Below are positions 197 to 32,670 of a stretch of DNA of 32,670 nt, in pieces. Under the pieces are notes generated by a model. The model ran no database searches, was not told where the DNA came from, and saw only the letters and a list, made by a program, of their open reading frames with translations. Made by a program: the position numbers and the translations under genes. Positions within the stretch are counted from its first letter, which is position 1. Each line of letters opens with the position of its first letter. This DNA is from PVC group bacterium (ex Bugula neritina AB1) (GTDB lineage: Bacteria; GCA-001730085): the NCBI GenBank assembly GCA_001730085.1, contig MDLB01000095.1:1-32670 (forward strand), read 5' to 3'.

Positions 197-225
197 TTGA
201 CAAATAAAATAAAAAAATGTATAAT
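197..225 (+). promoter_or_regulatory. Consensus sigma-70 promoter for the 354-aa secreted protein gene
   Basis: TTGACA at 197-202 and TATAAT at 220-225 both match the consensus in full and are separated by the ideal 17 bp. The predicted transcription start is near 232, giving a 5' leader of about 80 nt. The promoter lies about 40 bp after the transposase stop, so it may be native or brought by the element. Confidence 0.8.
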
Positions 226-312: not shown

Positions 313-1377
313 ATGTCTCATTTCTTAAGTTTTCAACTTGTTTTATTATCCGTTATATTAATGCAGAGTTCCTTGTTTGGCCTCGCAGCACCAAGCGCAA
401 CCGCTGACCCCCAGGCTATAGAAAACACTCTAGGTGAGGCACAACGTTTGGTAGATCAACAACAGGCACAGACGGCTGCTCAATCTTCCCCCATAATGTT
501 GAGCGAAGAATATTCACAGGACTCTGATCAATATGGAGAGTCCTCTGGAGCGACCTCTGGAGCGGTCTCTAATCGATATATAGCAACTCTTATTGGTAAA
601 CCAGAGCTAGCCGAAATATCTTCGGTAAATGAAGAAGGCAGAGAATACCTTTCAGAAATGGTAAAAACCTTAGAAGGTGTAGCCCGAAATGCGTCTGAGA
701 AATTCGGAATAACCATATCAATTAGGGAAGAGCGTCACCCAGGAATGTCAGAACGTGTAATGGCAAGAATTGCCTCTAACGTCACTACACCAAAAGGACC
801 TGATACCCAAGGAAGCATTGTCATTTACTTATCACCTGATGTTATGCAACACCTAACTCATGCTGTTAATAGAGAGAACGATGTCGCTGTATATAATACT
901 TTACTTTGCGTTCTCAATAGCGAAATTAGTGAAGGTCTAACCGTCTTGGACAAAGATAGAGGTGAAACTGTCTCCAGCATCATTAACACCAGCTCTGACC
1001 TAGATAGGTCTAATCCTCAAGACGTCGCTGTTGCTGTTCAATTAGCAGCTCTTATTGAAGGATACAAATCCGCAAAATACTTGAGTATTATTGAAGAGGA
1101 CGGTCTACCAGGTATGTCAGCGTATTTAAATAGGTTCAGAGAGAATGTTTTAAAGCTCGATGGAGATATGCCTCATATATTTTCTTCAGAGGCTACTAAC
1201 TCTTTTATCAAAGCTATCGACTTTTTGATCTTAAATATTAGTAAATATGTTGATAAGTCAGACCAAACATTTGAAAGTGTTATGGGTACTCTACTTAGTT
1301 CAGATAGTGCTACTTCCGAAGGAGAAACTATTCTTGCGACTCTTGTATCGCACTTGAAAGTCGCTCAAAGTGCTTAA
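313..1377 (+). CDS. Secreted protein, first of three related; degenerate M48-like C-terminal domain
   Basis: The 354-aa product starts with a probable Sec signal peptide: a hydrophobic stretch at about residues 6-25, the motif SLFGLAAPS, and cleavage likely at an Ala site near residue 26-32. A low-complexity Q/S/G-rich stretch follows, with a 12-bp tandem repeat at about 543-566 encoding SGATSGA. From about residue 110 the layout resembles an M48-type zincin: IASNV (153-157), strand IVIYLSP (169-175), helix with SEISE (E204) where HExxH would be, then LIEGYK with E249. The zinc-binding histidines are absent, so catalysis is not expected. GGAGAGG at 299-305, 7 nt before ATG, supports the start. 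The gene looks richer in G and C than the two secreted genes downstream. I recognise no named family, and the M48 resemblance is by eye only. Confidence 0.85.
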   Translation: MSHFLSFQLVLLSVILMQSSLFGLAAPSATADPQAIENTLGEAQRLVDQQQAQTAAQSSPIMLSEEYSQDSDQYGESSGATSGAVSNRYIATLIGKPELAEISSVNEEGREYLSEMVKTLEGVARNASEKFGITISIREERHPGMSERVMARIASNVTTPKGPDTQGSIVIYLSPDVMQHLTHAVNRENDVAVYNTLLCVLNSEISEGLTVLDKDRGETVSSIINTSSDLDRSNPQDVAVAVQLAALIEGYKSAKYLSIIEEDGLPGMSAYLNRFRENVLKLDGDMPHIFSSEATNSFIKAIDFLILNISKYVDKSDQTFESVMGTLLSSDSATSEGETILATLVSHLKVAQSA

Positions 1378-1410
1378 TCAAATATAAATTCGTATTTATA
1401 TTATCTTATT

Positions 1411-1447
1411 CGAAAAAAGCCTTCCCAAATTGGGAAGGCTTTTTTCG
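1411..1447 (+). terminator. Rho-independent terminator
   Basis: A perfect inverted repeat has arms of 16-17 bp around a loop of 3-5 nt. The left arm starts with an A tract and the right arm ends in a T tract, so it could stop transcripts from both directions. It lies 34 nt after the secreted-protein stop codon. Confidence 0.9.
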
Positions 1448-1757
1448 ATCTATTAAATCCGCAACCCCTATTCCTTTATTTCCTTTTTCCCTACTTGAGA
1501 TCAATATCTACCAGCTCAAAACTACTTACTAAATCCTAAGTATTATCTTCATCAACCTTATAAGACACATTTTCTAAGTCTCCTTTTCGAAGAAGATTTT
1601 AAAAATACCTAGCAAGTGTTCTTATGATTATGTTTAATTCTAAGTTTCTTTATCTAAATCCTATCCCTCTACGCCATTTTGAAAGCCTTCATGAAACTCT
1701 TTTCATAAATGATCTAAAGTATTTTATAACAATTTCATTTTTAAAAAATATATAAAC
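1448..1757. other. Intergenic gap without a supported gene
   Basis: No convincing coding frame is present on either strand. The + strand is strikingly C-rich and G-poor; for example 1501-1560 has 16 C and 2 G. Read on the - strand, one frame shows protein-like runs broken by stops (about 1490-1600, containing GDLENVSYKVDEDNT then a stop then DLVSSFELVDIDLK). This may be a decayed gene or chance. Confidence 0.4.
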
Positions 1758-1787
1758 TTGAAAAAAAAACAAACAATATTATATATA
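1758..1787 (+). promoter_or_regulatory. Possible promoter for the 317-aa secreted protein gene
   Basis: TTGAAA at 1758-1763 is followed about 18 bp later by TATATA in an alternating AT run (1781-1790). The extreme AT content makes chance matches easy, so the exact -10 box is uncertain. Confidence 0.4.
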
Positions 1788-1836
1788 TATAAATATATTT
1801 AATTTAATTTTAAAAGCAACAAAAAGGAGATAAAAT

Positions 1837-2790
1837 ATGTTTTATTCAAAAAAATACATGTTTATGTTTTTTTTATTTTTTTCTCATTCTTTATTTGGAA
1901 TATCTTCCCCCAATATAACTATGAAAGGAAAAAAAACATTTTCAAAGTTTCTAAACAAAATGAATCAAAGAAAAGATATCTACGCATTAGACAAATCTGA
2001 CTTAACAAGCTACCCTATTGGCGAACAAAAAAGTTCATCTAAAGATATTCTTGCCTTAGAAAAAGAGCTCCCCTCTCACCTGAGCAGTATTCAAAACATG
2101 ATAGAAATAAATAGTCAAAATTTATCTGGAGATTCACATAATCATGCGAACCTTTTTTTGAGTGACATTAAAGTCGGATGGCCTAATCATAATGAATCCT
2201 CAGCAATAGCAACTCATGTGGAAGAGGAAAATCAGGTTATTGTCTACATTTCTCCAAACATCTCTACTCAAATCAAAAGTTTTAAAAAGAAAAGTTCCTT
2301 TTTAAATGGGTTGGTTTTATTAGAATATTTTGAAGCTATTGCTAAAAAAGGTCTAAAAGCGCAAGTTAATATATCACCTCCTTCCGAATTTAAAAATGAT
2401 AAAGAGAGCATTTCACATTATTACGTGAAACTACAAATCATGGCTTTTTTATTAGCTGACCAAATGGTCGATCTCTCTAACCCTTTTTGGGTTCAAGAAA
2501 TGATCGAAGGATACAGGTTCATAGAAAAAAATATAGGGAATCAAAACACATATTATTTCAAAGAAAACACCTCTAATCCGGATTTTAGTAGAAGAAAAAC
2601 CATGGCTAAAAACTACATAGACTTTTTAGAAATCTATACTCTCTGGAAAAAAAACTTCGATAAACATTTTTTGACAACAGTCAAAACTTTTAAAGATATT
2701 AATAAACTTATCGATAAAAAAGTTTTTCTAAACTCTAAAGGAAAAAAAATAAGTTTAGAAGAATGGCTCTACGCTCACCTAAAATTTTAA
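1837..2790 (+). CDS. Secreted protein, second of three related; degenerate M48-like domain
   Basis: The 317-aa product has a classical signal peptide: KK near the N-terminus, a Phe-rich hydrophobic core (about 8-16), then HSLFGISSPN, which closely parallels SLFGLAAPS in the preceding protein. The mature protein is lysine- and asparagine-rich. The same order of motifs seen in the first protein recurs: IATHV (124-128), strand VIVYISP (134-140), helix with LEYFE (E163) at the HExxH position, and MIEGYRFIE with E224. Histidine ligands are missing, so a pseudopeptidase-like binding role is more likely than proteolysis. AAGGAG at 1824-1829, 7 nt before ATG, supports the start. The gene stands alone between long gaps. 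No named family was recognised. Confidence 0.82.
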   Translation: MFYSKKYMFMFFLFFSHSLFGISSPNITMKGKKTFSKFLNKMNQRKDIYALDKSDLTSYPIGEQKSSSKDILALEKELPSHLSSIQNMIEINSQNLSGDSHNHANLFLSDIKVGWPNHNESSAIATHVEEENQVIVYISPNISTQIKSFKKKSSFLNGLVLLEYFEAIAKKGLKAQVNISPPSEFKNDKESISHYYVKLQIMAFLLADQMVDLSNPFWVQEMIEGYRFIEKNIGNQNTYYFKENTSNPDFSRRKTMAKNYIDFLEIYTLWKKNFDKHFLTTVKTFKDINKLIDKKVFLNSKGKKISLEEWLYAHLKF

Positions 2791-2839
2791 ATAGAAAGAA
2801 CTAGAAAAAAGGATTATACTCTATTTTTCAAGTGTATTC

Positions 2840-2930
2840 AGAAAGGCCACCGCACAAGCTCATCTATACCTGAGTTATAAAACAAACAATAGAGGTCTCT
2901 ATTAAAATTGTTCCGTGGCCTTTCTTTTTT
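2840..2930 (+). terminator. Branched RNA hairpin ending in a T tract; terminator or small structured RNA
   Basis: An 11-bp perfect stem (2840-2850 with 2915-2925) is followed by a run of T. Its 64-nt interior can form two further hairpins: 2857-2862 with 2871-2876 (6 bp, one G-U, 8-nt loop), and 2885-2890 with 2907-2912, with AGAG/CTCT inside the latter. The whole is a three-way junction. It lies 50 nt after the stop of the 317-aa protein gene and probably ends its transcript. The elaborate loop is unusual for a simple terminator. Confidence 0.6.
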
Positions 2931-3400
2931 TCTAAAAAGTAATCGCATATCTATCCTTAAATCTAAAAAAATAATTTTCTTTTTGAGGTCAATAAAAATC
3001 TCATCACTAGGCTTCCACTTCTGACCATTAAGTCTATTAAACTATTACTCCACTCTATCAACTTTATCTGTCTAAATAAGACACTCTTAAATGAAACTCC
3101 TACGCTCTCTTTTACTAAAAGGATACTCGTTTACCTCACAAACTAACCCCTTTACAACCCTCTTTGTAAATATACAAACTAAAAAAATTTACACCCAATC
3201 TCAAAAATTTAATATAAATATATATTTAAATTAAAAAAATATGATGTTTTATGCAATTATAAAAAAATATAAATTTTAAAATAATCCTCATTCTTATCAA
3301 ATATATTATGATTTATTTTAAAATATAATGATATATATAATTTAAAGTTTTTTTGAACAATCTTAAATCTACACCTTTATACGAAAGATTTGAAGAAAAG
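2931..3400. other. Intergenic gap without a supported gene
   Basis: The left part (to about 3170) is C-rich and G-poor on the + strand; 3001-3060 has 18 C and 4 G. The right part (about 3180-3360) is almost pure A/T. The - strand holds only short open stretches interrupted by stops, of about 25-50 codons. No gene can be supported. Confidence 0.4.
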
Positions 3401-3418
3401 TGTGTCTTAAAAGACACA
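3401..3418. promoter_or_regulatory. Perfect 8+8 palindrome upstream of the giant secreted protein gene
   Basis: TGTGTCTT-AA-AAGACACA is an exact inverted repeat 58 bp before the ATG at 3476. A second palindrome, TTAAAAATTTTTAA, follows at 3425-3438, and an AT-rich possible -10 (CATAAT) lies at about 3439-3444. The position suits a dimeric regulator's operator. No matching site was seen before the other two secreted-protein genes, and no clear -35 box was found. Confidence 0.4.
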
Positions 3419-3475
3419 AAGTGATTAAAAATTTTTAACATAATAATCATTTAACCAGCCTAAGGGATAATAAAA

Positions 3476-6400
3476 ATGCGAAAAAATAGTATATCCATAT
3501 TTTTTTTACACATAATATCTATACATCTATTCCTATCAACATGTTTATTTTCTTTAGCCCCATTATCTCCTCTAAGAGTCGATAAAGATCAAAAAAAACA
3601 ATCTTCGCCTAAAGAACAAGTTAGCTTAAAAAAACCTTCTCCTGAAACTCCTGTGGAAAGCTCTACAAATTGGAACCATTATTTTGAAGAGCTAAAGGCT
3701 TCTAAAAGCACAAAAGAGCTACAAAGTTTTTGGAGTAAAGTTATTGCTGAAAATAATTTAAAAAATTTATTAGAAAACTTTATCCATACCCAAACAATGG
3801 ATAATAACTTAGACAATGCGTTCGACAGTGCTTTAAATAAAATAAAAATTTTAAATTTAACTTTAGACTACCTTTTTTCTTCCTCTATAGATAAAGAATA
3901 CCATGAGCAAATACAAGAGACTATATCGAACTCTATGATCACATTATTAGACATCTGTAAAGAATCTTATGAGGCAAGAAACTACCTTTCAGCAACACAA
4001 AGAGCTCTTCAGTATCAGAAGGATATAGAAGAAATTTATCTAAAATTCACTTTTTCTTCAAAAAGACCAATGACACTTTTAACTGATAAAGTAAATGAAT
4101 TACTTAGAGATTTCGACCAAAAAGCTATAGATTTTTTGAATAACAAAAGAACAGAAACCTTTATTCAAAATCTTGCCGAAAATCACTCACCAAAATTTAT
4201 CGAAGAATACATGGAAATTTTTTCATTTTTAAAATATCCCTATATGACAAAAAAAATGAGAAAGTCTATTAAAGATAAAATTATTTTATTCGATAAACTT
4301 TTGATTAATATTTTTTTAAAAAACCCAAACGCCTCTATAACACTTAAAAGTTTACCTACCGATAAACTATCTTTTATCGCTCAAAGATATTCCCAATCTA
4401 AAGAGAATCAAAGTACAAAACAGCAAAAAGATAAACAAGGAGATCAAGATAGAAGTGAGTTTGATGAATCTATATGGAGTGAGCTGATTTCTTCTTACAA
4501 AAGCACTGACTTTCTTAAAACAAAATCGTGGTCAGAAAGAGATGCCTTTTTTAGCTGTGTTAGTCATCTAGAAAGAGCTGATTTTCACTCTAAAGAAAAA
4601 CCAATAGCAAATCTCCAAAAACCTTCTCTTGAGACTTATTCTTTAAAAGACTTAAAAGAGTTATTCGATACAAGGATGTGTCTTTCTCTCTTGCGAAGTC
4701 TTTTAGACAGATTTGCACATCCTACAATCGATGATAAAAAAGACATTTCCTTGTGGTTAAAAAAAATCGGAACTCTCCAGAGTTTATCTGATATTATTAA
4801 TGATCAATCTACAGAAGCATTTACAGACACAGTACAACCTTCTTTAACCCCCAATGAAAAAACCGAAGCCTTAGAAATTATTCAACAATCTATGTCTGAA
4901 CTAAGTGAATATAAAAGCTTTTATACGAGTGACCCCAATATGCACTCAATCGAAACCCTTCTCCAAGCTGAAGAAAAAATCTCACCTGCCATGTTTTCCT
5001 TTACAAGTGATTCTGACAAAGAAACCGATGGAGAAGATATTGCAAAAACATCTCTTTCAATTGAAAACTGGTTAAAAGTGGTTCTATCCTCTTTAGAAAA
5101 TATTCAAAATTCTTCTTTTACACATATAAATAATGCGGACAGAAGTAGCTACTTTGTTTTATATAATTATCTAAAAAATCACGATAAATTCGTAACCCAA
5201 GAGTCCCCTACTTCCCGTTTAGAAGATTTTTATCGTATATGGACAACAACACAAACTCTTTTAAAATCCCAAAAAGAAGCCTCTAAACAAAAAGCAACCG
5301 GGTTGAAATTTTTATCCAAAAGTTCTGTGGAAAAAGTTTTAAAAAAGATGGAAAGTAATATGATAAAGACTTTAGAATTTTTTCCTGTAGAAAACACAAG
5401 TACTTGGATAAGTTTTCTAAATATAAATAAACTTCTACAAGAAAAAGAAAATGTATCAGAAAATTTAAAAAGGGCATTCCGATTAAAAGAAAAAAGGATG
5501 TTGCAAGCTTCTAAAAATGTTCTGTCCTCTTTTTTGAAAAAAGACCTCCCAGAACTTTTACTAGCACCTAAAACTGATGGTTCTTCTATCACAACAGCCT
5601 TATTCTTTGTTCAAAAATGTCTAAGTAACCAAAAAAAAGATATAAAAAGATACCTATCCCTTGGTCTTAGAGAATCTTATCAGCAAGGTGGCTGGTCTAA
5701 TATCTATAACCTATATCTTTTCAAAAAAAACGACCTTCTTTTAAATCCAGAAGAACGTGAACGTCTTTCTATTATTTTAACTACAATATCTGAAATCTTT
5801 TATAGAGAAGCATTCCCTGTTACCTTAGAATCTAAGACCCCTATAGATTTCTCACCTTCCTTAAATGTGAACGACCTTTTAGCAAGCGAAGATTTCTTAA
5901 AACAATTCTTTTCTCTAAAGAACTCCGAGGTAGAGTTTTTTGCTCTTAACCTTATGTATCAATTTAATAGTAAGGAAGCTTTAAGTTTAATTATAACTAA
6001 GTTAGTATACTATAAAGAATATATCGAAAAAGAAGAAGCGGATTTTTTGAAGGGAAAAAGACTTTTTACAAATAAATCATTTGAAAGACATTTAGAAAAA
6101 ATATTCATATTCATGGTAACGATTAGAAAAAATGCTGCTTACAGAAAGTTCTTTTCAAGATCAGATTCGCTATCCCAAACTTTAGACATTAATATCGGAA
6201 ATTTACAAAAAAGACTCCCTAGTATTTTTTCTAATTCCTATTTTACTAGAACTCAAAATGAAAGATCTTACGAAGAACAAGAAAGCCGTGACGAAAATAT
6301 ACCCTTATTTTCTGCTCAAAGATTTAACGATCTTTATAATGATATGATAGAATTCATACAAAGCATTGAAGAAAATAATAATCCTAATATTTACGATATA

Positions 6401-9400
6401 TTAATCGTGTTGGATCGTCAAAAATATTTTCAACAAATCTTAAATCATTGGCAAAGGGATATCTTTTATAGTTTTAATAAGGATTTACTTGATAGAAAAA
6501 AAATTCTAGACGCATCTATACAAAGTATGATAAAAAGATACAAAAACTCACTTCGAAGGAAGAATGCCGAAGATTCCGTTTCGGTCATAGATAAACTTGG
6601 ATTACAAGTTGATTTAGAGAATTTTAACTCATCATTGAACGATGCCAATATCGCTTTAAAAATATTTTTAGATACGCTAAATAAACGAAAAACTAAAAGC
6701 CAAAATAAACTAAGGGAGTACCTAAACGAAAATTTTCACATAACCGTATGGCCAATTATCAAAGACTCTATCGAGCAAGATCTCAGCGGAACTCGTATAC
6801 GTTGGGATCAACGATCTTTAAGAGAAGAAACTCTCACTCTATTATCTAAAATGTATGACGAATCTAACTTAACAGAAAGCGTAACAGAAGATTCCTTAAC
6901 AATCGAAGAGCTCTTAAGCGATCAAAATAAATTTGACTCTTTAAACTTAGAAGTATTAGAAGAAACCTTAGAAAAATTCTTAGACATACAAAAAGAAGAC
7001 ATCCCAACTGTAGATAGCGTCGATAAAACTTTAGCCAATTTTTATAAACTTTTCGAAAAAATAAACGCCCTCGATAAAAATTCCATTACTCCTATTGATA
7101 AATCAAAAGCCTTAAGAATTTTGATCGATCAGAGAAACAGATACATTGATAGTATAATACCACGCATTGATCAACCCTTGAATATTGAGGGTTTTCTTCA
7201 AAATAAATGGGAACAATTGGATTCATTAGAATTCGAATCTCTCTCTTCTCCCCTCTCGGATAGCTCCCGTATGTGGCATTTTCTACAAGAAACAACTATT
7301 AAAGATTACTTTATGCAAAGCACCTCCTATGATCCTTTAGCGGTGCAACAAGGACCTGTTTCTATCAATAAGATCTTGACAGCCTCTTCATCAATACATG
7401 CGTTCTCCAGCAATATAGAGAATGTAACCTATAAAATATCTATGATAAAACTGCTTGCGCTCATTTTGAATAATATTCAACCGCTCAATCTATCACCGCT
7501 ATCTCCTAATCTAACTTTACCTTTGATAAAAAGTAAAGCTAAAACAAACCTTAGCGCATATATGTATAAACTCAACAAAGATTTAGAAAATTTACAACAA
7601 TCTGTTAGTAAATTGCAGACAGAAGATATGCCTAAAGTTTGGCAAATTTTGTCAGAAATATCATCTGTAAAAAATCTTTTTGAAAATATTACAGATAGCT
7701 ATGACGTGAGCACTTTGGATAAAAAGTTTAAATCCTTACATAAGACTCTTATATCTCAAATGAAAAAGCAATCCACTCGCTCCCTTGAATCTATGTTTAA
7801 TCAATGTCTTCGTCAATTAAGTTTAAGTCCTACTCCTAATATCGACCCTATGTATCTGTTTTTACAAGATTTTAGAAAAGTCATATCAAAAAGAAAATCC
7901 ACATTTCAACAATCTCCAAATAAAAATATTATCGAAACTTTTTATAAAAAGTACAGTTCATATATAGAAAATTTTTCTAAAATCTCAAAAAGTGATATCT
8001 CCAAACCTCTTCATATCATCTATCTCTTCTGTGACATTCTTAAAAAAGATCTCCCTGCAAATATTAGAACATTAAACCTTAAAGATCTAGAAGCTAACTA
8101 TGTCTCCGAAAATGCTTTTTCAAGTCTAAACTCATTTTCTTTGGATCAAACATTAGCCACTATAAATCCTTTTTCCTTTGATCAAGCTTTAACGGAATAT
8201 TTAAAAGATTTAGATATTCCTTCAACAAAGTCTTCTGATAGAGAAAAAACTGTTATATCACGATTAAGAACTTTGATAAATCTTTCATACATCGTGAAAG
8301 ATTTGGATTCTTCTTACAAAGAGAAAATCGCAGCTACTATAATACAACTCTTATCTTTAGAGTCACTTCCTTCTATGAATTTAACAAAAAATCCAAAAAC
8401 ATTTAAAAGGTATAAAACAACAGATCAATTGATTAATCAATTTAAAGTTTCTTTATATATTAAATTAGGATTAAAATATGGATTAAACTTTCAAGGATAT
8501 AAAAATATTACTAATATATCTAAAAATTTATTAAATATTAACAAATTAGGAGAAGAGTTTAAATCATATGAACTTACTAATTTATATCCTTCTCTTATTG
8601 AACCTGAATTAATAGACATTTTACCTTCTCTTATTCAACCTGAATTAATAGGCATTTTATATAGAGCAGTTGAAAACAGTGATTTTTTTAAGATTTTAAA
8701 TTTGTTTAAAAAATATCTAGCTTTAGATCCTACAAAACTTAAAACCTTTAAAAGTAATTTAGACACTTGGATAACAAGTGATCCGGAATTTTCTAACAAA
8801 ACCGATGAGGAGTTAACAAACTTCCGAAAGCGTATTTTCAACATTTTTACAGATATAAGTACCGAACTCTCTAGTTCCACAAGTACTGCACCTATCGAAA
8901 TCACAGAAAGTGAAAAAGCAGAAGCACAACAACTGATTGATAACACAAAAATGGCCACTTTAAGCGAAGAAGATATTTTTAGTGATGGTAGCTGGAGCGA
9001 CTACGCTAGCAGTGAATGGGATGAGTTCACTACTGTTAATCAAGGAGAAGAAAATATCTTGCAAGAAGTAGCATCCGATAATAAATCAATCGACGACAGT
9101 CCTTTTCAATGGGAACAAGATATCTTACAAAAAAGCGACATTTTGGACGATAGAACTTACGAAGAGATTGATAGAACTTACGAAGAGATTAGATCATCTC
9201 TCGATATTGATAATATCGAAAATGACAATATTGAGACTATTGATGCTACTTTTGAAAGCAGCGAAAATGATTTACTTACAGGCGAAGGACTTGTCGACGG
9301 TGAGCCTGAAAGTTACAATCAAGAGAAAGATCCTCTTTATGCTCCCATCAATAAACAAAACCCTCTATTTGTTGACATGGAGCAATTAAGTTCTTCTATC

Positions 9401-11005
9401 TATGAAAACTATGAGGATCAAGGGTTTGAAAGTGACACTGAAAGAAACAGTGAGGATAATCAACAACAAATTTCTAATGATAATGACAACTGGAGTGACT
9501 ACTCGAGTATGTTCGGAAGCGTCGATTCAACTGAAACTTCTGATACTCAAGATATTACCAAGAGAATGAGAAATTTTCGAAAATTTCTCAACGATACTTC
9601 TAGCCAGGTTGATGAAGATGAAAAAGTGTCTGCTTCGCAACCAAAAGCTTCTTCTACTATGTTATCAAATTTTACAAGCTCTGAAGCTTCTGGAAATGAT
9701 CAACAAGAAATTTCTAATGATAATAACAACTTGAGTGACTCCTCGGGTATGTTCGGAAGCGTCGATTCAGCTGATACTTCTGATAGTCAAGATATTACCA
9801 AGAGAATGAGCAATTTTCTCAACGATACTTTTGTCCCGGTTGATGAAGATGAAAAAGTGTCTGCCGCAGCCAAAAGCTTCTTCTTTTCTATGTTATCAAA
9901 TTTTACAAGCTCTGAAGCTTCTGGAAAGCTTGTAAGTAGCGATTTTAGAAAACCTGAAGATTTCTCTAAACTATCAAATATTTCTGTAGACTCTTCTAAT
10001 ACATTGCAAAGATATTCAACTCAACAAAAAGCTTCTTTCAATGATTCAGGTATAGCATCCACTTCTTCTAATACCTCTTTACCTGAAAACTCTCTCACAT
10101 CTCAAGATGATTATTCTTCAGCTCAAGCCTATCTTCAAAGCTCTTTTGTCAAAGCCTCTTCTTCCATCATACCGGCGGGTTCTGATCATCCCTACTCAGA
10201 ATTCTCTTCTTATGTACAAGAACCAAGACTTAATCTTCAACCGAGCATAAGAGGCCTACTCAATATTGATCAAGTGCCAAGTGAAAAAGATTTAAAAGCT
10301 GTCCCTGAACATTTCAAAGAATCCCTTAATATCAATTTTTCAAATAGTAATCTAAGTGTAAGTGATTCTTTATCGGAAGCCATTCGAGCCTTAAATGAAA
10401 AGTATAAACAAGAAAACAAACCCCTCGTTGAATTTTATTATCATACAGATAGAGACGAACCAAAGCCTTTGATGGCTTCGCCTGTCATGAGAAAAGATAA
10501 TAAAATCATTATAAGTGAACTATTCATAAATTTTCTTATAAAAAATAACTCTTCTTACAAATCTTATCTTACTTCTCTGATAAAAGAGCGTCTATACGAA
10601 ATGTATCATACCGAACAAGAGTCTCTTTTTACAGAACGTGGACGTCTTAATCAAGGTTTTTTTAATAAGTTCATTACAAAGAAAATGTTCAGCTGGTTAA
10701 GTTTATCTCAGGAGGAATTAGATAAACATAGTGTATTCGAAGCTGCTTGGTTCGAACATATAAAAGCTCAAGAAAATTTACCCGCTACAACACCTTATAG
10801 TTCAGATATAAGAATAATGAAAGAAAGATTCATCAAAGAAAAAGATCAATCTAAGCTTCGTAAACTCTCTATTCAAAGCAGTTACAAAGACACAGATTTC
10901 GATACAAGTATGTTAAATGATACCTCTTTTGAGTTTAACGAAGAAAAAATTAGAAATGTTCTAGAAACAATAGCTCTAGAACAAAAAATCGACCTTTCAA
11001 CCTAA
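3476..11005 (+). CDS. Giant secreted protein (2509 aa), third of the related trio
   Basis: This gene takes up nearly a quarter of the window. Residues 1-26 form a signal peptide with an RK-rich start, a hydrophobic core, then CLFSLAPLSP, echoing the SLFG motif of the two upstream proteins. Residues about 50-1800 are Lys/Leu/Ser-rich, appear mostly helical, and match no family I recognise. About 1805-2270 is an acidic, Ser/Asp/Glu-rich linker holding tandem duplications. Residues about 2300-2500 carry the shared C-terminal layout: MASPV (2333-2337), strand KIIIS (2343-2347), helix KERLYE (E2371), and FEAAWFE with E2422. These correspond to an M48-like zincin without its histidines. AAGGGA at 3462-3467 precedes the ATG at 3476. 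There is no lipobox, Cys-rich repeat or autotransporter barrel, so export by Sec to the periplasm or beyond is inferred. Function is unknown; a structural or host-facing role is possible. Confidence 0.88.
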   Translation: MRKNSISIFFLHIISIHLFLSTCLFSLAPLSPLRVDKDQKKQSSPKEQVSLKKPSPETPVESSTNWNHYFEELKASKSTKELQSFWSKVIAENNLKNLLENFIHTQTMDNNLDNAFDSALNKIKILNLTLDYLFSSSIDKEYHEQIQETISNSMITLLDICKESYEARNYLSATQRALQYQKDIEEIYLKFTFSSKRPMTLLTDKVNELLRDFDQKAIDFLNNKRTETFIQNLAENHSPKFIEEYMEIFSFLKYPYMTKKMRKSIKDKIILFDKLLINIFLKNPNASITLKSLPTDKLSFIAQRYSQSKENQSTKQQKDKQGDQDRSEFDESIWSELISSYKSTDFLKTKSWSERDAFFSCVSHLERADFHSKEKPIANLQKPSLETYSLKDLKELFDTRMCLSLLRSLLDRFAHPTIDDKKDISLWLKKIGTLQSLSDIINDQSTEAFTDTVQPSLTPNEKTEALEIIQQSMSELSEYKSFYTSDPNMHSIETLLQAEEKISPAMFSFTSDSDKETDGEDIAKTSLSIENWLKVVLSSLENIQNSSFTHINNADRSSYFVLYNYLKNHDKFVTQESPTSRLEDFYRIWTTTQTLLKSQKEASKQKATGLKFLSKSSVEKVLKKMESNMIKTLEFFPVENTSTWISFLNINKLLQEKENVSENLKRAFRLKEKRMLQASKNVLSSFLKKDLPELLLAPKTDGSSITTALFFVQKCLSNQKKDIKRYLSLGLRESYQQGGWSNIYNLYLFKKNDLLLNPEERERLSIILTTISEIFYREAFPVTLESKTPIDFSPSLNVNDLLASEDFLKQFFSLKNSEVEFFALNLMYQFNSKEALSLIITKLVYYKEYIEKEEADFLKGKRLFTNKSFERHLEKIFIFMVTIRKNAAYRKFFSRSDSLSQTLDINIGNLQKRLPSIFSNSYFTRTQNERSYEEQESRDENIPLFSAQRFNDLYNDMIEFIQSIEENNNPNIYDILIVLDRQKYFQQILNHWQRDIFYSFNKDLLDRKKILDASIQSMIKRYKNSLRRKNAEDSVSVIDKLGLQVDLENFNSSLNDANIALKIFLDTLNKRKTKSQNKLREYLNENFHITVWPIIKDSIEQDLSGTRIRWDQRSLREETLTLLSKMYDESNLTESVTEDSLTIEELLSDQNKFDSLNLEVLEETLEKFLDIQKEDIPTVDSVDKTLANFYKLFEKINALDKNSITPIDKSKALRILIDQRNRYIDSIIPRIDQPLNIEGFLQNKWEQLDSLEFESLSSPLSDSSRMWHFLQETTIKDYFMQSTSYDPLAVQQGPVSINKILTASSSIHAFSSNIENVTYKISMIKLLALILNNIQPLNLSPLSPNLTLPLIKSKAKTNLSAYMYKLNKDLENLQQSVSKLQTEDMPKVWQILSEISSVKNLFENITDSYDVSTLDKKFKSLHKTLISQMKKQSTRSLESMFNQCLRQLSLSPTPNIDPMYLFLQDFRKVISKRKSTFQQSPNKNIIETFYKKYSSYIENFSKISKSDISKPLHIIYLFCDILKKDLPANIRTLNLKDLEANYVSENAFSSLNSFSLDQTLATINPFSFDQALTEYLKDLDIPSTKSSDREKTVISRLRTLINLSYIVKDLDSSYKEKIAATIIQLLSLESLPSMNLTKNPKTFKRYKTTDQLINQFKVSLYIKLGLKYGLNFQGYKNITNISKNLLNINKLGEEFKSYELTNLYPSLIEPELIDILPSLIQPELIGILYRAVENSDFFKILNLFKKYLALDPTKLKTFKSNLDTWITSDPEFSNKTDEELTNFRKRIFNIFTDISTELSSSTSTAPIEITESEKAEAQQLIDNTKMATLSEEDIFSDGSWSDYASSEWDEFTTVNQGEENILQEVASDNKSIDDSPFQWEQDILQKSDILDDRTYEEIDRTYEEIRSSLDIDNIENDNIETIDATFESSENDLLTGEGLVDGEPESYNQEKDPLYAPINKQNPLFVDMEQLSSSIYENYEDQGFESDTERNSEDNQQQISNDNDNWSDYSSMFGSVDSTETSDTQDITKRMRNFRKFLNDTSSQVDEDEKVSASQPKASSTMLSNFTSSEASGNDQQEISNDNNNLSDSSGMFGSVDSADTSDSQDITKRMSNFLNDTFVPVDEDEKVSAAAKSFFFSMLSNFTSSEASGKLVSSDFRKPEDFSKLSNISVDSSNTLQRYSTQQKASFNDSGIASTSSNTSLPENSLTSQDDYSSAQAYLQSSFVKASSSIIPAGSDHPYSEFSSYVQEPRLNLQPSIRGLLNIDQVPSEKDLKAVPEHFKESLNINFSNSNLSVSDSLSEAIRALNEKYKQENKPLVEFYYHTDRDEPKPLMASPVMRKDNKIIISELFINFLIKNNSSYKSYLTSLIKERLYEMYHTEQESLFTERGRLNQGFFNKFITKKMFSWLSLSQEELDKHSVFEAAWFEHIKAQENLPATTPYSSDIRIMKERFIKEKDQSKLRKLSIQSSYKDTDFDTSMLNDTSFEFNEEKIRNVLETIALEQKIDLST
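8588..8659 (+). repeat. 36-bp tandem duplication within the giant gene
   Basis: Two adjacent 36-bp copies (8588-8623 and 8624-8659) differ at only a few bases and encode PSLIEPELIDIL then PSLIQPELIGIL. The unit is 12 codons, so the frame is kept. Confidence 0.9.
9149..9190 (+). repeat. 21-bp exact tandem duplication within the giant gene
   Basis: Identical 21-bp copies at 9149-9169 and 9170-9190 encode DRTYEEI twice in the acidic linker. Exact identity suggests a recent slippage event. Confidence 0.9.
9455..9925 (+). repeat. Large in-frame tandem duplication (240 + 231 bp) in the acidic linker
   Basis: Unit 1 (9455-9694) and unit 2 (9695-9925) align along their full length. Shared landmarks are QQ-x-ISNDN, MFGSVDS, QDITKRM, FLNDT, VDEDEKVSA and MLSNFTSSEASG. 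Unit 2 lacks a 9-bp stretch of unit 1 (extra residues RKF/RNF region). Near 9629-9660 versus 9862-9892 the copies read the same bases in different frames because of paired 2-bp indels, giving PKASS in one and KSFFFS in the other. Confidence 0.9.
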
Positions 11006-13726: not shown

Positions 13727-15052
13727 TTATATACTCAAACTTTGCGAAGTGCTTTTGCGATAAAAAAGATCAAATATCGCCCGCGACACAAAAAGAGCCG
13801 TGAACATACTCGATAAAACCCCTACAGAAAGAGTCACAGCAAAACCACGTATCGGACCTGTCCCAAACTTAAACAAAATCAAAGCTGTGATCAATGTCGT
13901 CAAGTTCGCATCCATTATCGTAACAAAAGCTTTGTCAAAGCCAAGCTTCAAAGCAGATTTAACTGTTTTTGATTGACGAAGCTCTTCTCTAATTCTTTCG
14001 AAAATAAGAACATTGGCATCAACCGCCATACCTATCGTCAAAATGATCCCCGCGATACCAGGTAAAGTCAGGGTAGCATCAAAAAAAGAAAGTATCCCAA
14101 CAACAAAAAGGATATTCAGAAGAAGAGAAACATTGGCTATCAAACCTGCACCTTTATAATAAATCAACATAAAAAGGATAACCAAGATCAAGCCCAATAA
14201 AGCTGACTTCATACCTTTCTTGATAGAGTCTGCACCCAATGATGGTCCCACAGTGCTTTCCTGAAGAATCTTGATCGGAGCAGGCAAGGCACCTGCACGC
14301 AAAGAAATAGCCAAATCTTTGGCTTCATCTACCCCAAAACTACCGGATATCTGAGCACGACCTCCAGGTATTTTCTGTTTGATGGCTGGTGCAGATTGGA
14401 CTTTCCCATCTAAAACAATCGCCAAACGACGGTTAACGTTATCACCCGTTAATTTTTCAAACCTGCGTGCACCTTTTTTATTAAACTCTAAGGAAACAGA
14501 AACGCCTCCAAATCCTCCTTGATCAAAAGCGACTATCGCATCTGTCAACATATCTCCGGTCAAATAAGTTGTTTTCTCTATCAAAAGGAACTCTTCTCCT
14601 TGGCTTGTTGCCATTGGTAAAAGCTCATAGTCTCTCTTGTCTGCCGGAGAAAGTTTTCCTTCCAAAGCTTTTTTTCGCTTCTTTTCATTATCAACAACCA
14701 AGCGGAACTCTAAAAAAGCTTGACGCATAATAATATTTTTAATACGCTGAGCTCCTTCTGTTTCAACACCGGGAACCTGTACTATCAAGCGATTATCTGT
14801 ACCTTTTTGAATAATAGGTTCTGCCACACCAAATTCATCCACACGGTTACGTATAATCTCCAAAGCCACATCAACAACATCTTTTTTTTCTTTTTCTGTC
14901 AATTTGGAATCATCAACCTCTAAGGTTAAATAGCTCCCACCCTGCAAATCAAGACCCAGATTTATAGCTTTTTTGAGAGGGGTGATCTTCCATGCCATCA
15001 AAAGAACCATCCCTGCAATCAAAACCCATTTTCGCCGAAAAGACATATTCAT
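13727..15052 (-). CDS. secD: Protein translocase subunit SecD
   Basis: Partner of SecF in the Sec export motor. The 441-aa protein has TM1 near residues 8-24 and GLDLQGG (33-39). The P1 head follows, with IIRNRVDEFGV and the IVQVPG segment, and the late TM block contains GMAVDANVLIFERIREEL and a GPIRGFAVTLSVG segment. It is much shorter than the roughly 615-aa E. coli SecD, which has additional periplasmic sequence, but this size is common outside Gammaproteobacteria. The ATG start overlaps the phosphatase stop by 4 nt (ATGA), with AAGGAG about 11 nt upstream. The M3 codon, 6 nt further in, is a possible alternative start. Confidence 0.97.
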   Translation of the reverse strand: MNMSFRRKWVLIAGMVLLMAWKITPLKKAINLGLDLQGGSYLTLEVDDSKLTEKEKKDVVDVALEIIRNRVDEFGVAEPIIQKGTDNRLIVQVPGVETEGAQRIKNIIMRQAFLEFRLVVDNEKKRKKALEGKLSPADKRDYELLPMATSQGEEFLLIEKTTYLTGDMLTDAIVAFDQGGFGGVSVSLEFNKKGARRFEKLTGDNVNRRLAIVLDGKVQSAPAIKQKIPGGRAQISGSFGVDEAKDLAISLRAGALPAPIKILQESTVGPSLGADSIKKGMKSALLGLILVILFMLIYYKGAGLIANVSLLLNILFVVGILSFFDATLTLPGIAGIILTIGMAVDANVLIFERIREELRQSKTVKSALKLGFDKAFVTIMDANLTTLITALILFKFGTGPIRGFAVTLSVGVLSSMFTALFVSRAIFDLFYRKSTSQSLSI

Positions 15053-15855
15053 GCTTTGACCAGCTCCTTACTTTTATCAATTTTAAAAATAACCGCTGTC
15101 ACATCATCAACGGCACCAGCCTCCTTTGCTTCATCTATCAATTTCCGAACAGCATTTTGACAATTCATTCGTTCACTCAAAAGACAGTTATGTATTTGCC
15201 CTTCTGATAATCCCGAAGTTAAGCCATCCGAACACAAAAGATAAAACCCCTCTCTAAGACACTCTTTATAAAAATCAACCTCCACATCCCTTAAAGCCCC
15301 AATAGCTCTTGTTATCACATTTTCAATTTTCAAAGAAAAAGCATCAGCTTTTCTCACATACTTTTTTGACCGTAACTCTTCAATCAAAGAATGATCGTTT
15401 GTGATTTGTCTGATCAATTGATCATTAATATAGTAAGCACGACTATCGCCCACATTAATAAAACAAATATCTTTACCTTCTCGTATATAAAGAGAAACCA
15501 AAGTTGAACCCATTCCCTTTAGAGATTTTTCTACAGTCGACCTTTTATGAACTTTATCATTCGCTATATGCGCCAACTGTACGAAATTATTCTCATCAGG
15601 GAACATCGCTGCATTTTTTTGACACATTTTCATCTCTTCAAAACATGAATGATCGAGTATATCATATGTTTTAAATACGTCAACCACCATTTCACTAGCT
15701 TCGGCTCCACCATTGTGACCACCGATCCCATCACAGACACATGCTATTTTATTTTGAGGGTCTATAAAAAAGGCATCTTGATTAGAATCGTGCTTAAGCC
15801 CATGTTCTGTCATCCCTGCCATCTCTACCTCAAAGCAAAAATCATTGGGTAACAC
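15049..15855 (-). CDS. PP2C-family serine/threonine protein phosphatase (PrpC/Stp type)
   Basis: Metal-dependent (Mn/Mg) phosphatase that removes phosphate from serine and threonine in proteins. At 268 aa it has the full bacterial PP2C core: NQD (25-27), CDGIGGHNGG with D42, GMGSTL (114-119), VGDSRAY (135-141), ITNDHSL (151-157), ITRAIG (181-186), CSDGLT with D210, and the final VDDVT with D250/D251. The aspartates that hold the metals are present, so it should be active. It has no TM helix and is probably cytoplasmic. The assigned start is GTG at 15855, inside the end of the DUF4340 gene (14-nt overlap); ATG at 15822 is an alternative with GAGGT just upstream. No serine/threonine kinase gene is in the window, so its partner is unknown. 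Confidence 0.94.
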   Translation of the reverse strand: MLPNDFCFEVEMAGMTEHGLKHDSNQDAFFIDPQNKIACVCDGIGGHNGGAEASEMVVDVFKTYDILDHSCFEEMKMCQKNAAMFPDENNFVQLAHIANDKVHKRSTVEKSLKGMGSTLVSLYIREGKDICFINVGDSRAYYINDQLIRQITNDHSLIEELRSKKYVRKADAFSLKIENVITRAIGALRDVEVDFYKECLREGFYLLCSDGLTSGLSEGQIHNCLLSERMNCQNAVRKLIDEAKEAGAVDDVTAVIFKIDKSKELVKA

Positions 15856-17203
15856 GAGGAGATCCCTTTTCTAAAAAATCATCAAAAGACATTGTCACAT
15901 AGTCTAAAAAGCTTTCCAAAACATTTAAAACATAACTATCCCAAATCAAAAATAATTTTTCACCTTTTTTATAAAAAACATATTCCCATTGCTCACCTTT
16001 TTTAGAAAAAACTTTAAGAGTTAGAAGAATTTTTCCATCCACAAGTATATCTTTTTTTTTATTCAAGAAACCATGATATCTTTCAACAAGACCGTTATTT
16101 AGTGCAGACAAAAAGCGTAAAAAATGAATATTAGGATTATAAAGATGCTCTTCTTTTTTATAAATCTTCCACGTGAGATTATCTTGTTTAACTGCCCAAT
16201 CCAATTTTTTCTGCTTCCATATTTCCATTTTCGTAACCTCTTCTATATTAAACGGGAAGATTTTTTTTTGAAACATATCGTAAGGATTAAATATCAAGCG
16301 ATTCATCACGTCTTTTTTCAAAGCATGCGTTTTTTCAGAAGCAAAAGTTTTCAAGGGATAAACCTGTTTTTCTTTATCCAAAGGAGCAAAAATCAAACGC
16401 TGAGACTTATCTCTACCTTTAAAAAAACACTCTATCTCTAAGAAAGGATTTTTCCAATCAACTTCTTTATCAAAAACACTCGCATCAAAACCCAAGTGAA
16501 ACATATAATCAAGCATTTTTTCAACTTTTGAGGTGTTCAAATCTTCTTGAAAAGGCTGCGTCGATTTCCATTTCTTATCTTTTTTAATGATTTCAAAAGT
16601 TTGTGTTCCCAACTTAGAAAACCTAGAGTCGATCCACTTCACTTTTTCTAAATTATCAAGCCCATGAGAAAATAAACTTGTTTTTTGAATATTAGAGGGT
16701 GAACGAAACATATAAGAAAAAAACTCTTTACGCAAAAGAAAAACATACGACAAATGCTTCCATTTAGCATAATAAGCATTTTCAACCATCACCATATCCC
16801 CTACCATTAAAGCATAGTTATCTTTACTCGTCACAACGGTAAAAACTGATGAAGCATCTTTTAAACCATACATCTCTAAGTCTTTTTTAGATAAATCTCT
16901 TTTAACAATAGTTCCAGCACTAAAAGGAGAAAAAGCCTGCGAAAATTGGTCGAAAAACCCTTGCTCCACATCTGCGCGATAAGGAGTAATCAGTTTCCAT
17001 TGATCTCCTTCACTAACACGCCTAATAGTGTGTCGTTCTTTGGGATTTTGTATATTGAATCCTAGGATATTTTTGTGGTCAATTTTAAAGGTTTCAGATG
17101 CTTCAAGCGAAGCTTTTGTAGAATATCTCTGTAAAAAGATTACCCATGCAATAAAAAAAATCACAAAAAAAAGTAAAATATTTTTAGAAAAAAACTTATA
17201 CAT
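15842..17203 (-). CDS. DUF4340-type membrane-anchored protein
   Basis: A 453-aa protein with one N-terminal TM helix (about 8-25), with most of the chain likely outside the cytoplasm. The body fits the DUF4340 pattern: W-x-L-x-x-P at WKLITP, then a pair of repeats each with a helix-rich 'FSAFSAG' type segment and a YGLKD-like step (MYGLKDASSVFTVV), and VGDMVMVENAYYAKW. DUF4340 proteins are regularly found next to GldG-like and GldF-like genes, as here, and are thought to belong to the same membrane complex. No enzymatic motif is visible. It starts 3 nt after the gldG-like stop with only a weak GTGAG, so coupling is likely. It overlaps the phosphatase start by 14 nt. The residue-level family call is from memory of the pattern. 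Confidence 0.8.
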   Translation of the reverse strand: MYKFFSKNILLFFVIFFIAWVIFLQRYSTKASLEASETFKIDHKNILGFNIQNPKERHTIRRVSEGDQWKLITPYRADVEQGFFDQFSQAFSPFSAGTIVKRDLSKKDLEMYGLKDASSVFTVVTSKDNYALMVGDMVMVENAYYAKWKHLSYVFLLRKEFFSYMFRSPSNIQKTSLFSHGLDNLEKVKWIDSRFSKLGTQTFEIIKKDKKWKSTQPFQEDLNTSKVEKMLDYMFHLGFDASVFDKEVDWKNPFLEIECFFKGRDKSQRLIFAPLDKEKQVYPLKTFASEKTHALKKDVMNRLIFNPYDMFQKKIFPFNIEEVTKMEIWKQKKLDWAVKQDNLTWKIYKKEEHLYNPNIHFLRFLSALNNGLVERYHGFLNKKKDILVDGKILLTLKVFSKKGEQWEYVFYKKGEKLFLIWDSYVLNVLESFLDYVTMSFDDFLEKGSPRVTQ

Positions 17204-17206
17204 ATC

Positions 17207-18595
17207 TCACTTTTGTCTTAAAAAGAAAACAAAAATCCCACAAATGAACCACCCACAAGGTATAACAAAAAAGAGCCATATATTAAAATTTTTCAATTGT
17301 CTTTCCGTCAAAGGCAAGCTCATTTTTCGTAATGTCTTCGCAGGAATACTTATCAACTCTTCTTGTTCCATTAACCAGCGAACTGTGTTCAAAAAAAGAT
17401 ATTTATTACCTCCAAAATTTATAAATTGATTAGAAATAAAATCACTATCACCCCAAACCACAAGGCGGCTTCCCGTTACAACATTTTCACTTGAAACACC
17501 AACAGACAACGGTCCAACATTATCCTTTTTTTTGTCATACATATAAGGTGTTTGTCGATAATCTGTCTCTCCCCACGCATCTAGAGATGTTTTTGTGAGC
17601 GGCGAAGCTTGATATAGAGACTTTAAAGACAAAGCATTTGTGGACCTAGGTAATACAAATTTTGTATAAACTTGATACATTTTTTCTGTCAGGGGGTGTT
17701 TCTCATAATTAATCGTCAAAAGATTCAAAAGAGACGTGTTTGCTTCGGTGAATTGAGGATCAACAATTATGTCATCACCCACACCTACATTATAATCTTT
17801 CAACCATGGGATAAGGTTTGTTTGCTGTTGAGAGTCAAGCAAAACAATCAATCGACCACCTTCTTTTAAAAATCCCGTCAAAATTTTCACTTCTGCATCC
17901 GTCAGAGGATAGGACCCTCCAGGAATAACGATATACTCAACCTTAACCTCTTCCTTTTTCATATTCACAAGGTGCAAAGGTTTCACTTCTAAATTTTGTT
18001 TTAGCAGAAGATTTTTCAAAGACAAAAGACCTTCTTTCCCAGAGTCCCCGACGCTTTTTTCACCATGCCCTGTCACGAAGTGAAGTGTTTTTTTCTTCGG
18101 ATTTTGTAAAGCGAAAATAGCTCCCGAAATAGCCGCTTCCCCTGAAAAACTTTGCAATTGGGGTGGCATCCCAACATTTACTGGAGAATAATCGTACACA
18201 GCAATATCTCTAAGCCTCAATAGTTGGGTTTTGTATTTGTGACGAACTAAAACAATCTCTTCTTTGAGTTCAAATCCATATTTAGATGCCAAGATCTTGC
18301 TCTGCCCAACATCTTTAATAGGATCAACATAATTAACTAATATCAAGGAAGACTTTTGTTGATACTGTTCTAATAAACGCTTGATTTGAGTATAGATAAG
18401 TCTTTCTTTACGGACAAAAGCAACAATTTCCACATCTCCATCTAAGCTATTTAAAATGTGTTTTGTTTTATCGCTTAAAGTGAACATCTTTTCTTTTGTA
18501 AGATCAAAAGATTTTTTATAGTAAGAAGCAATATAAGTTACCAACACTACACAAACAAAAAATAAAACTATCCGCCATATTTTTAGTTTTTCCAT
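17207..18595 (-). CDS. GldG-like ABC-associated protein (auxiliary component)
   Basis: A 462-aa protein with a TM helix at about residues 8-26, a large non-cytoplasmic domain and a second TM helix near the C-terminus (about 436-458). It shows the GldG-family features TKEKMFTLSDKTKHIL after TM1, the FSGEAAISGAI segment, HFVTGHGEKS, and a glutamine-amidotransferase-like fold region with VIPGG and FLKEGGRLIVLLD. In Bacteroidetes the GldA/F/G set is linked to gliding; elsewhere the same trio occurs without gliding and its substrate is unknown. GGAGAG (18602-18607) sits 6 nt before ATG and lies inside the permease gene, which it overlaps by 13 nt. Confidence 0.88.
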   Translation of the reverse strand: MEKLKIWRIVLFFVCVVLVTYIASYYKKSFDLTKEKMFTLSDKTKHILNSLDGDVEIVAFVRKERLIYTQIKRLLEQYQQKSSLILVNYVDPIKDVGQSKILASKYGFELKEEIVLVRHKYKTQLLRLRDIAVYDYSPVNVGMPPQLQSFSGEAAISGAIFALQNPKKKTLHFVTGHGEKSVGDSGKEGLLSLKNLLLKQNLEVKPLHLVNMKKEEVKVEYIVIPGGSYPLTDAEVKILTGFLKEGGRLIVLLDSQQQTNLIPWLKDYNVGVGDDIIVDPQFTEANTSLLNLLTINYEKHPLTEKMYQVYTKFVLPRSTNALSLKSLYQASPLTKTSLDAWGETDYRQTPYMYDKKKDNVGPLSVGVSSENVVTGSRLVVWGDSDFISNQFINFGGNKYLFLNTVRWLMEQEELISIPAKTLRKMSLPLTERQLKNFNIWLFFVIPCGWFICGIFVFFLRQK

Positions 18596-31381: not shown

Positions 31382-32012
31382 CTAAACAGCTAAAGCTTTT
31401 ATATTGGGGGATTCTTTCGACCTACCTACCTTATGAGGCAACCCTTTCGCCTTAGACCCTACGCTGATAGGTATTTTTAAGGAGGAACTCTTTACAAATT
31501 CACTCTGCCCGAGCGACTCAACTAAACATTGTTGTTTGATATTTTTGGCGGCATTGATATCTCTATCTAGCTCCATCCCACAAGAAGGGCATAGCCACTT
31601 CCTAATGATTAATGGGCGCTTTTTTGATTTATAACTACAATTATGTAAAATCTTAGAACTAGCGAAAAAAAAGAGAGACTTTTATCATTTTTTTCACATA
31701 CAAATCACTTTTATACTTTAAAAATGTGATAAATATTGACCATTCTGCATCATGGATTGACTTAGAAAGTTTTTTATTTTTTACCATTCCTTTGATATTC
31801 AAATCTTCTACCGCAAATATTGTTACTTGGTTTTTGACAACAAGTTCATACGTTAGTTTGTGATGAATATCTTTTCTAGTGTTTTTTATTTTTTCATAAA
31901 TATTGGCAACTTTATATTTTTGTTTCTTTCGATTGATTGCGTTTTTTGATTTTCTACACAAAAATTTTTGTTCTATTGCTAATTTTTTTGATATTTTTTC
32001 AGTATTTTTTGG
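31382..32012 (-). pseudogene. tnpB: Decayed tnpB (IS200/IS605-family RNA-guided nuclease) fragment
   Basis: Only the rear half of a TnpB/OrfB remains. From about 32012 the frame reads TEKISKKLAIEQKFL, then RKDIHHKL, AVEDLNIKGM (RuvC-II glutamate), KNKKLSKSIHDAEW and KVSLFF. An extra T in an 8-T run (complement of A 31665-31672) then moves it to a TAG at 31659. The next frame continues ASSKILHNCSYK, WLCPSCG and the RuvC-III motif DRDINAAKNI to the TAG at 31382. The first zinc-finger half reads LHNC instead of the usual C-x-x-C. RuvC-I and the DNA-binding N-terminus are missing beyond a stop at 32013-32015. The gene is therefore dead unless translation shifts frame, and even then it lacks its front half. 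Confidence 0.88.
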
Positions 32013-32043
32013 TTATTTTTTTTATCATTTCAAGCCGAGAAGA

Positions 32044-32077
32044 CCTCTTCCTTTAGGTTGAGGATGAGAGGCTTTTT
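32044..32077 (+). terminator. Hairpin with T tract between the two tnpB genes
   Basis: CCTCTT (32044-32049) can pair with GAGAGG (32066-32071, one G-U), and a CTTTTT run follows at once. This looks like a terminator on the + strand. It may also be part of a transposon end or of the RNA scaffold region of an IS605-type element. No + strand gene ends just before it. Confidence 0.4.
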
Positions 32078-32157
32078 CACAGATATTAAAAATGTGGAGA
32101 GCTTTGGTTTTTAATATATTTTTTAATTTTCCATAGAGCCTATGTTAAAGTGTGTGA

Positions 32158-32670
32158 ATGAAAAAAGTTAAGAGTTTTAAATTTAAATTAAAATTAAAAA
32201 GTAAAGAACAAGAAATTACTTTGAAGAAAAATCTTGGTTGTAATCGTTTTGTTTGGAACAAAGCTCTTGCTATTCAAAAGGAAAGACTGGAGAACAAGCA
32301 AAAGCTTTTGAGCTGGTACGAACTTGACTGGTGGAAAAATAATTTTTGGAAGAAAAGCGAAGAATATGATTTCTTAAAAGAGGTTTCGTCGCAACCACTT
32401 AATCAAACGTTGAAAATGTTAGATAGAGCTATTTGGGATTGTTTGACGAAAAAAGTCAAAGGACGGGGATTCCCTAGATTCAAACATAAAAAATCAGACT
32501 CAGGATTTAGATACCCTGTAGGTGTCAAAATAAAAAACAAACAAGTATTTCTTCCTAAAATAGGCTGGGTGCATTTTTTCAAGAGCCAAGAAGTAATAGG
32601 TACTCCCAAAAATGCCACTGTGACTTATTATGCAGGTGATTGGTTCGTTTCTATTCAGACGGAGATTGAG
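32158..32670 (+). CDS. tnpB: TnpB, RNA-guided nuclease of IS200/IS605 family (5' part)
   Basis: An uninterrupted frame of 171 codons runs from ATG 32158 off the right edge. The N-terminus MKKVKSFKFKLK, then CNRFVWNKALAIQKE, QPLNQTLKMLDRAIWDC, KGRGFPRFKHKK and RYPVGVKIKNKQVFLPKIG match the helix-turn-helix and wedge-like front half of TnpB/OrfB proteins. The catalytic RuvC part lies outside the window, so activity cannot be judged. No good ribosome binding site is seen before the ATG. A small hairpin, CATA-gagcc-TATG (at about 32132-32144), lies just upstream and may mark the element's left end. It is transcribed away from the - strand tnpB remnant. Confidence 0.9.
   Translation, partial: MKKVKSFKFKLKLKSKEQEITLKKNLGCNRFVWNKALAIQKERLENKQKLLSWYELDWWKNNFWKKSEEYDFLKEVSSQPLNQTLKMLDRAIWDCLTKKVKGRGFPRFKHKKSDSGFRYPVGVKIKNKQVFLPKIGWVHFFKSQEVIGTPKNATVTYYAGDWFVSIQTEIE

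Follow-up and report, generated by a model that had tools for sequence, protein, structure and literature searches.

A lineage-specific C-terminal module with a degenerate HExxH-like site in giant secreted proteins of a PVC group bacterium

The secreted protein P0003 of the PVC group bacterium (ex Bugula neritina AB1) ends in a C-terminal module that, judged from sequence comparison, is real, previously undescribed and lineage-specific. The same comparisons establish a family of such modules, its conserved residues and its absence elsewhere in the data searched. We assign a probability of about 0.5 to the wider reading, in which P0003 belongs to a lineage-specific, mostly giant secreted family whose module has a zincin-like fold, a degenerate site and a binding role. 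The window, i.e. the whole stretch of 32,670 nucleotides analysed, is the entire contig C95 of a draft genome (1.9 Mb, 108 contigs, 97.6% complete). It contains the following features of P0003:

3476..11005, + strand: P0003, open reading frame of a 2509-aa secreted giant with leader, long body, Ser/Asp/Glu-rich stretch and C-terminal module
3476..3568, + strand: leader of P0003, ending in CLFSLAPLSP (sequence)
8876..10225, + strand: Ser/Asp/Glu-rich stretch of P0003 (composition)
10358..10795, + strand: C-terminal module, residues ~2295-2440, common to five proteins of the genome (matches on C87, C21, C40 and C74; alignments A2/A3; model)
10442..10450, + strand: invariant motif H2323-x-D2325, which follows predicted strand 1 (alignment)
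10472..10492, + strand: M-x-[FS]-P-V-M-R motif, residues 2333-2339, followed by an I-I-x-S strand (alignment)
10595..10609, + strand: YEMYH (2374-2378), degenerate HExxH-like site with the family form [YF][ED]xxH (alignment and model)
10736..10750, + strand: FEAAW (2421-2425), conserved [ED]xxW at a third-ligand-like acid position (alignment)

A genome search with P0003 yielded two further places that match its C-terminus, and an alignment of these, used as query, led to those on C40 and C74. The module alignment comprises five sequences, all from this one genome, over ~150 residues, and its profile matches P0003 and the proteins on C87, C21, C40 and C74 with E-values from 9e-66 to 5e-55. The copies are 26-37% identical to P0003 and have 15 invariant columns in common (H, D, M, P, V, M, R, I, I, S, F, F, Y, H, W), which in P0003 include H2323, D2325, M2333, P2336-R2339, H2378, and W2425. 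A sixth candidate on C94 (E 6.5e-4) begins inside the end of a HAD-like open reading frame, enters non-coding sequence and has a stop, and was rejected as a chance match.

The HExxH-like motif of the module retains its second histidine in every copy, while the first is replaced by Tyr or Phe in all five (YEMYH, YEIVH, YDMMH, YEIFH and FDMYH). About 45 residues downstream, [ED]xxW lies on a predicted helix, with D in one copy. An earlier sequence-only reading had taken P0001, P0002 and P0003, three neighbours in the window, for secreted paralogues with a histidine-less, M48-like pseudopeptidase domain. The three open reading frames and all motifs it quoted are present at the residues given for them. 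The description as histidine-less is wrong for P0003, because His2378 is invariant across the five copies. Among the quoted P0003 motifs, E2422 in FEAAW is indeed the conserved acid, while E2371 is unconserved and the acid of the helix is E2375 in YEMYH. Likewise, MASPV is a real motif of P0003, and its conserved form is M-[APS]-[FS]-P-V-M-R.

No relative of the module was found in G001, the one other genome that makes up the phylum comparison, nor among 386 other genomes sampled; weak matches in other genomes are short, frequently stop-containing and at chance level, and were not accepted as relatives. A pattern-based search of an 84,980-species genome collection, from which the organism's own genome was possibly left out, returned none either, and no relative of the module, P0001 or P0002 was found in viral contigs. 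Further, no relative of the module was found in Pfam, NCBIfam or the PDB sequences, with PDB sequence matches at chance level only, and a description of such a protein family was not found in the literature.

The module closes proteins of a common plan. The C87a (2073-aa frame) and C40 (1790-aa frame) proteins consist, like P0003, of leader, long body, Ser/Asp/Glu-rich stretch and module. In P0003, the S+D+E fraction is 0.37-0.41 across residues ~1800-2250, and a segment of ~230-240 nt is duplicated inside this stretch at 9456-9927 (repeats D1-D3). Similarity between the bodies is weak and partial (C87a/C87b, E 3e-7; C40/P0003, E 3e-8; C87b/P0003, E 8e-4). Four of the five module proteins are giants when the C21 copy is counted as a probable giant tail. 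Contig C21 ends within a Ser-rich repeat (KSIKD-GKSPSETSS) that also closes the second C87 giant; because this repeat is common to both ends, C21 may be the tail of that giant and the two a single gene, and no sequence overlap between them was found. The fifth copy, on C74 (L030:5000-7904), is frame-broken: it lies downstream of a membrane-hairpin stretch that stands in another frame and is interrupted by stops, and is thus either a decayed gene or a misassembly.

AlphaFold2 modelling of P0003 residues 2270-2509 on the five-sequence alignment predicts the order helix-strand-strand-strand-helix-helix(YEMYH)-helix-helix(FEAAW), with a pTM of 0.60 and a core pLDDT of mostly 66-87; the model spans all 240 residues, and its disordered ends depress the scores. 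Foldseek returned no match to this model at E 0.001, and zincins are absent from the PDB list. Among the viral models of BFVD, the top 50 weak matches include ~10 SprT, IrrE, M48, M61 or metalloprotease entries; the best named zincin match in that list is M61 (probability 0.89), and the zincin matches have TM-scores of at most 0.30. The same BFVD search with a low-confidence model of P0001 gave no zincin among 42 matches. Because the element order fits and the BFVD list is rich in zincins but non-significant, we lean towards a zincin-like fold and regard the P0003 module as a probable, albeit unproven, zincin-like pseudopeptidase module. That the module instead adopts an unrelated α/β fold, its HExxH-like look being coincidental, is the less likely reading. 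It would account for the lack of a significant zincin match in fold or sequence and for the moderate confidence of the model, whereas the weak viral lean to zincins and the conservation of both [ED]xxH and the downstream acid argue against it.

Membership of the module in M48 fails in every sequence test made. Pfam, NCBIfam, PHROGs and PDB gave no peptidase sequence match, and hhalign of the module against the genome's own M48 returned nothing. PF01435 detects this true M48 at E 4.7e-39, and P0001-P0003 and the five module copies have no Pfam match. In place of the HExxH of M48, the five copies carry [YF][ED]xxH, P0001 SEISE and P0002 LEYFE. By eye, NAFF..IVLFDTLIEQL..VLAHEMGHF of the active M48 can be laid over MAFPVMR..IIISERFLNFL..LLYEIVHDF of the module. 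For P0003, the predicted helix, three strands and following helices and the degenerate HExxH-like site fit the earlier proposal of a pseudopeptidase fold; its M48 assignment does not hold at the sequence level.

The module resembles M48 (PF01435) and other gluzincins in its predicted element order; a hydrophobic strand precedes the active-site-like helix, ExxH is left of the zinc motif, and an acid follows downstream. In contrast to them, its first zinc histidine is Tyr or Phe in 5/5 copies, it has no profile or significant fold match, and PVMR and HxD are signatures unique to it. SprT-like and IrrE-like zincins are named most often in the weak viral Foldseek list, whereas the module lacks a complete HExxH and a significant match and is C-terminal in giant secreted proteins. 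A review of metallopeptidase pseudoenzymes covers ADAMs, M14, FtsHi and others, including first-position substitutions in FtsHi such as TEVGV and NEAAM, and does not mention M48 (PMC11266112). The module resembles these pseudoenzymes in the loss of HExxH residues and in a likely binding or scaffolding role; unlike them, its family is bacterial, secreted and so far found in one genome only.

The leaders of the three neighbours do resemble each other, as first read, and their pattern [WFL]GL[AS]PxS is real and genome-wide. As a codon pattern, G[L/F][A/S]Px[S/T] has 28 matches vs 2 in the reversed control; ~9 of the 28 are N-terminal and directly follow a hydrophobic stretch (C39, C40, C58, two on C87, C90, C94 and two on C103). 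In G001, the pattern is not enriched (12 vs 22 in the control) and no match is a leader. Leader sites lie in L042, L043, L046, L053-L055, L057, L063 and L064 of the own genome and at 313, 1837 and 3476 of the window. The leader is found on giants, on membrane-hairpin proteins and on an E1-E2 ATPase, and most leader-bearing proteins have no module. Since it also stands before membrane-hairpin proteins and the ATPase-like protein, it does not mark the module, contrary to the sequence-only reading; from its distribution, it is a lineage-specific export leader independent of the module. The P-type (E1-E2) ATPase-like protein (L037:8119-11346 on C94, 1076 aa) starts with the leader SWGLAPSSEVLKP, which is unusual for a polytopic transporter. 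Leader proteins in L042, L055, L063 and L030:10370-14536 and 14739-17291 combine membrane hairpins that come in pairs with long charged regions, which we take to be reminiscent of Chlamydiae Inc proteins.

Type II secretion genes gspD/E/F are located on C108. A separate cluster comprises two PilM-like genes and two that encode secretins, one of these secretins having TPR repeats; the stretches concerned are L082 (C92) and L083 (C108). The module could be conceived as a sorting or anchoring tag for an export or surface-attachment machine, with nothing to do with peptidases, a reading we hold to be rather unlikely. It sits at the C-terminus of secreted proteins with weakly alike bodies, just as known C-terminal sorting domains sit at the C-terminus of dissimilar secreted proteins, and the type II cluster together with the further secretin and PilM genes could export such proteins. 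However, known sorting-domain profiles do not match, and export does not require the module because most leader proteins lack it. Moreover, a tag of this kind would be compatible with a zincin-like fold.

The two smaller neighbours and their flanking elements are:

197..225, + strand: perfect match to a sigma-70-type promoter (TTGACA-17-TATAAT) upstream of P0001 (consensus match only)
313..1377, + strand: P0001, open reading frame of a 354-aa secreted protein with leader SSLFGLAAPS; candidate only for the module family (sequence)
919..933, + strand: SEISE (203-207) of P0001, HExxH-like only by eye (sequence)
1413..1446, + strand: terminator-like hairpin 3' of P0001, AAAAAAGCCTTCCC-AAATT-GGGAAGGCTTTTTT (read directly in the sequence)
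1837..2790, + strand: P0002, open reading frame of a 317-aa secreted protein with leader HSLFGISSPN; candidate only for the module family (sequence)

P0001 and P0002 are likewise secreted proteins, with leaders of the kind seen in P0003. A secreted family with a common C-terminal module, as first proposed, exists in the form of the five proteins above; the claim that P0001 and P0002 are paralogues of P0003, with one module in proteins from 317 to 2509 aa, found no significant similarity to rest on. BLAST, phmmer, hhalign and shuffled alignments detect none among the three, and pairwise alignment scores fall within the shuffle range (P 0.06-0.8). The module profile gives -0.6 bits for P0001 and 2.7 bits for P0002 vs 206 bits for P0003, scores that are equalled by 30% of shuffles for P0001 and 5% for P0002. 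The profile-profile comparison by hhalign, which the sequence-only reading had itself suggested, returned nothing; three MAFFT modes never place the motifs of the three proteins in one register, and none of the three has a Pfam or NCBIfam match above curated cut-offs. The single-sequence AlphaFold2 model of P0001 (pLDDT 43) is uninterpretable, and fold comparison is meaningless at such confidence.

It is nevertheless conceivable, if unlikely, that all three are paralogues with the module and that P0001 and P0002 have diverged past sequence detection. Their similar leaders and adjacency favour this, as does a helix-strands-helix plan in which SEISE and LEYFE can be matched visually to YExxH; P0001 and P0002 also have [IV]-[IV]-Y-[IL]-S-P and IEGY in common. 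The strict chain of motifs, with [IM]A[ST]xV, three I/V and two E at set spacing, is rare in shuffles (P0001, 5.5e-4; P0002, 5e-5; P0003, 0/20,000), frequencies that are not true P values because the chain was picked after looking, and none of 12 housekeeping proteins encoded in the window contains it. Against common descent stand the alignment and profile scores, the empty hhalign result, the inconsistent MAFFT registers and the P0001 model, which has no zincin match. We therefore consider membership of P0001 and P0002 in the module family improbable. Most doubtful is the broadest scenario, in which a giant secreted family expanded in a sparsely sampled phylum, its tail being a pseudo-zincin binding module and P0001 and P0002 its stand-alone, further-degenerated versions.

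P0001, P0002 and P0003 are all encoded on the + strand and are followed by convergent housekeeping genes on the - strand, by reading recJ, secF, secD, carB, carA, gltD, and gltB. AT-rich gaps of ~460 bp (P0001-P0002) and ~690 bp (P0002-P0003), together with the promoter match of P0001 and the terminator-like hairpin, suggest that each of the three is probably transcribed as a unit of its own. P0002 is followed at 2840-2925 by a long hairpin that has a T run and whose internal loop is structured (RNA fold z-score of -4.5); it may be either a terminator or a small RNA. Both contig edges look by reading like transposase remnants, with an integrase-core-like tail at 1-160 and a TnpB/OrfB-like frame at 31659-32670.

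Returning to the pseudo-zincin reading of the P0003 module, a family protein would begin with an export leader at its N-terminus, continue through a very long body and a stretch rich in serine and acidic residues, and end in the conserved ~150-residue C-terminal module. The leader would direct it to Sec and then perhaps to the type II system (gspD/E/F). The module would have a zincin-like fold in which HExxH has decayed to [YF][ED]xxH. As the first histidine is lost, it probably carries no catalytic zinc and would have lost catalysis. It might instead bind or hold a partner, be it a peptide, a component of the envelope or a protein of the host.

Sets of secreted and membrane proteins often mediate host or cell-cell contact in general. 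If the reading is right, it would add a bacterial pseudopeptidase-like module that is secreted, multi-copy and part of very large proteins, and an export leader, specific to this genome, that marks a group of secreted and membrane proteins in a phylum hardly studied so far.
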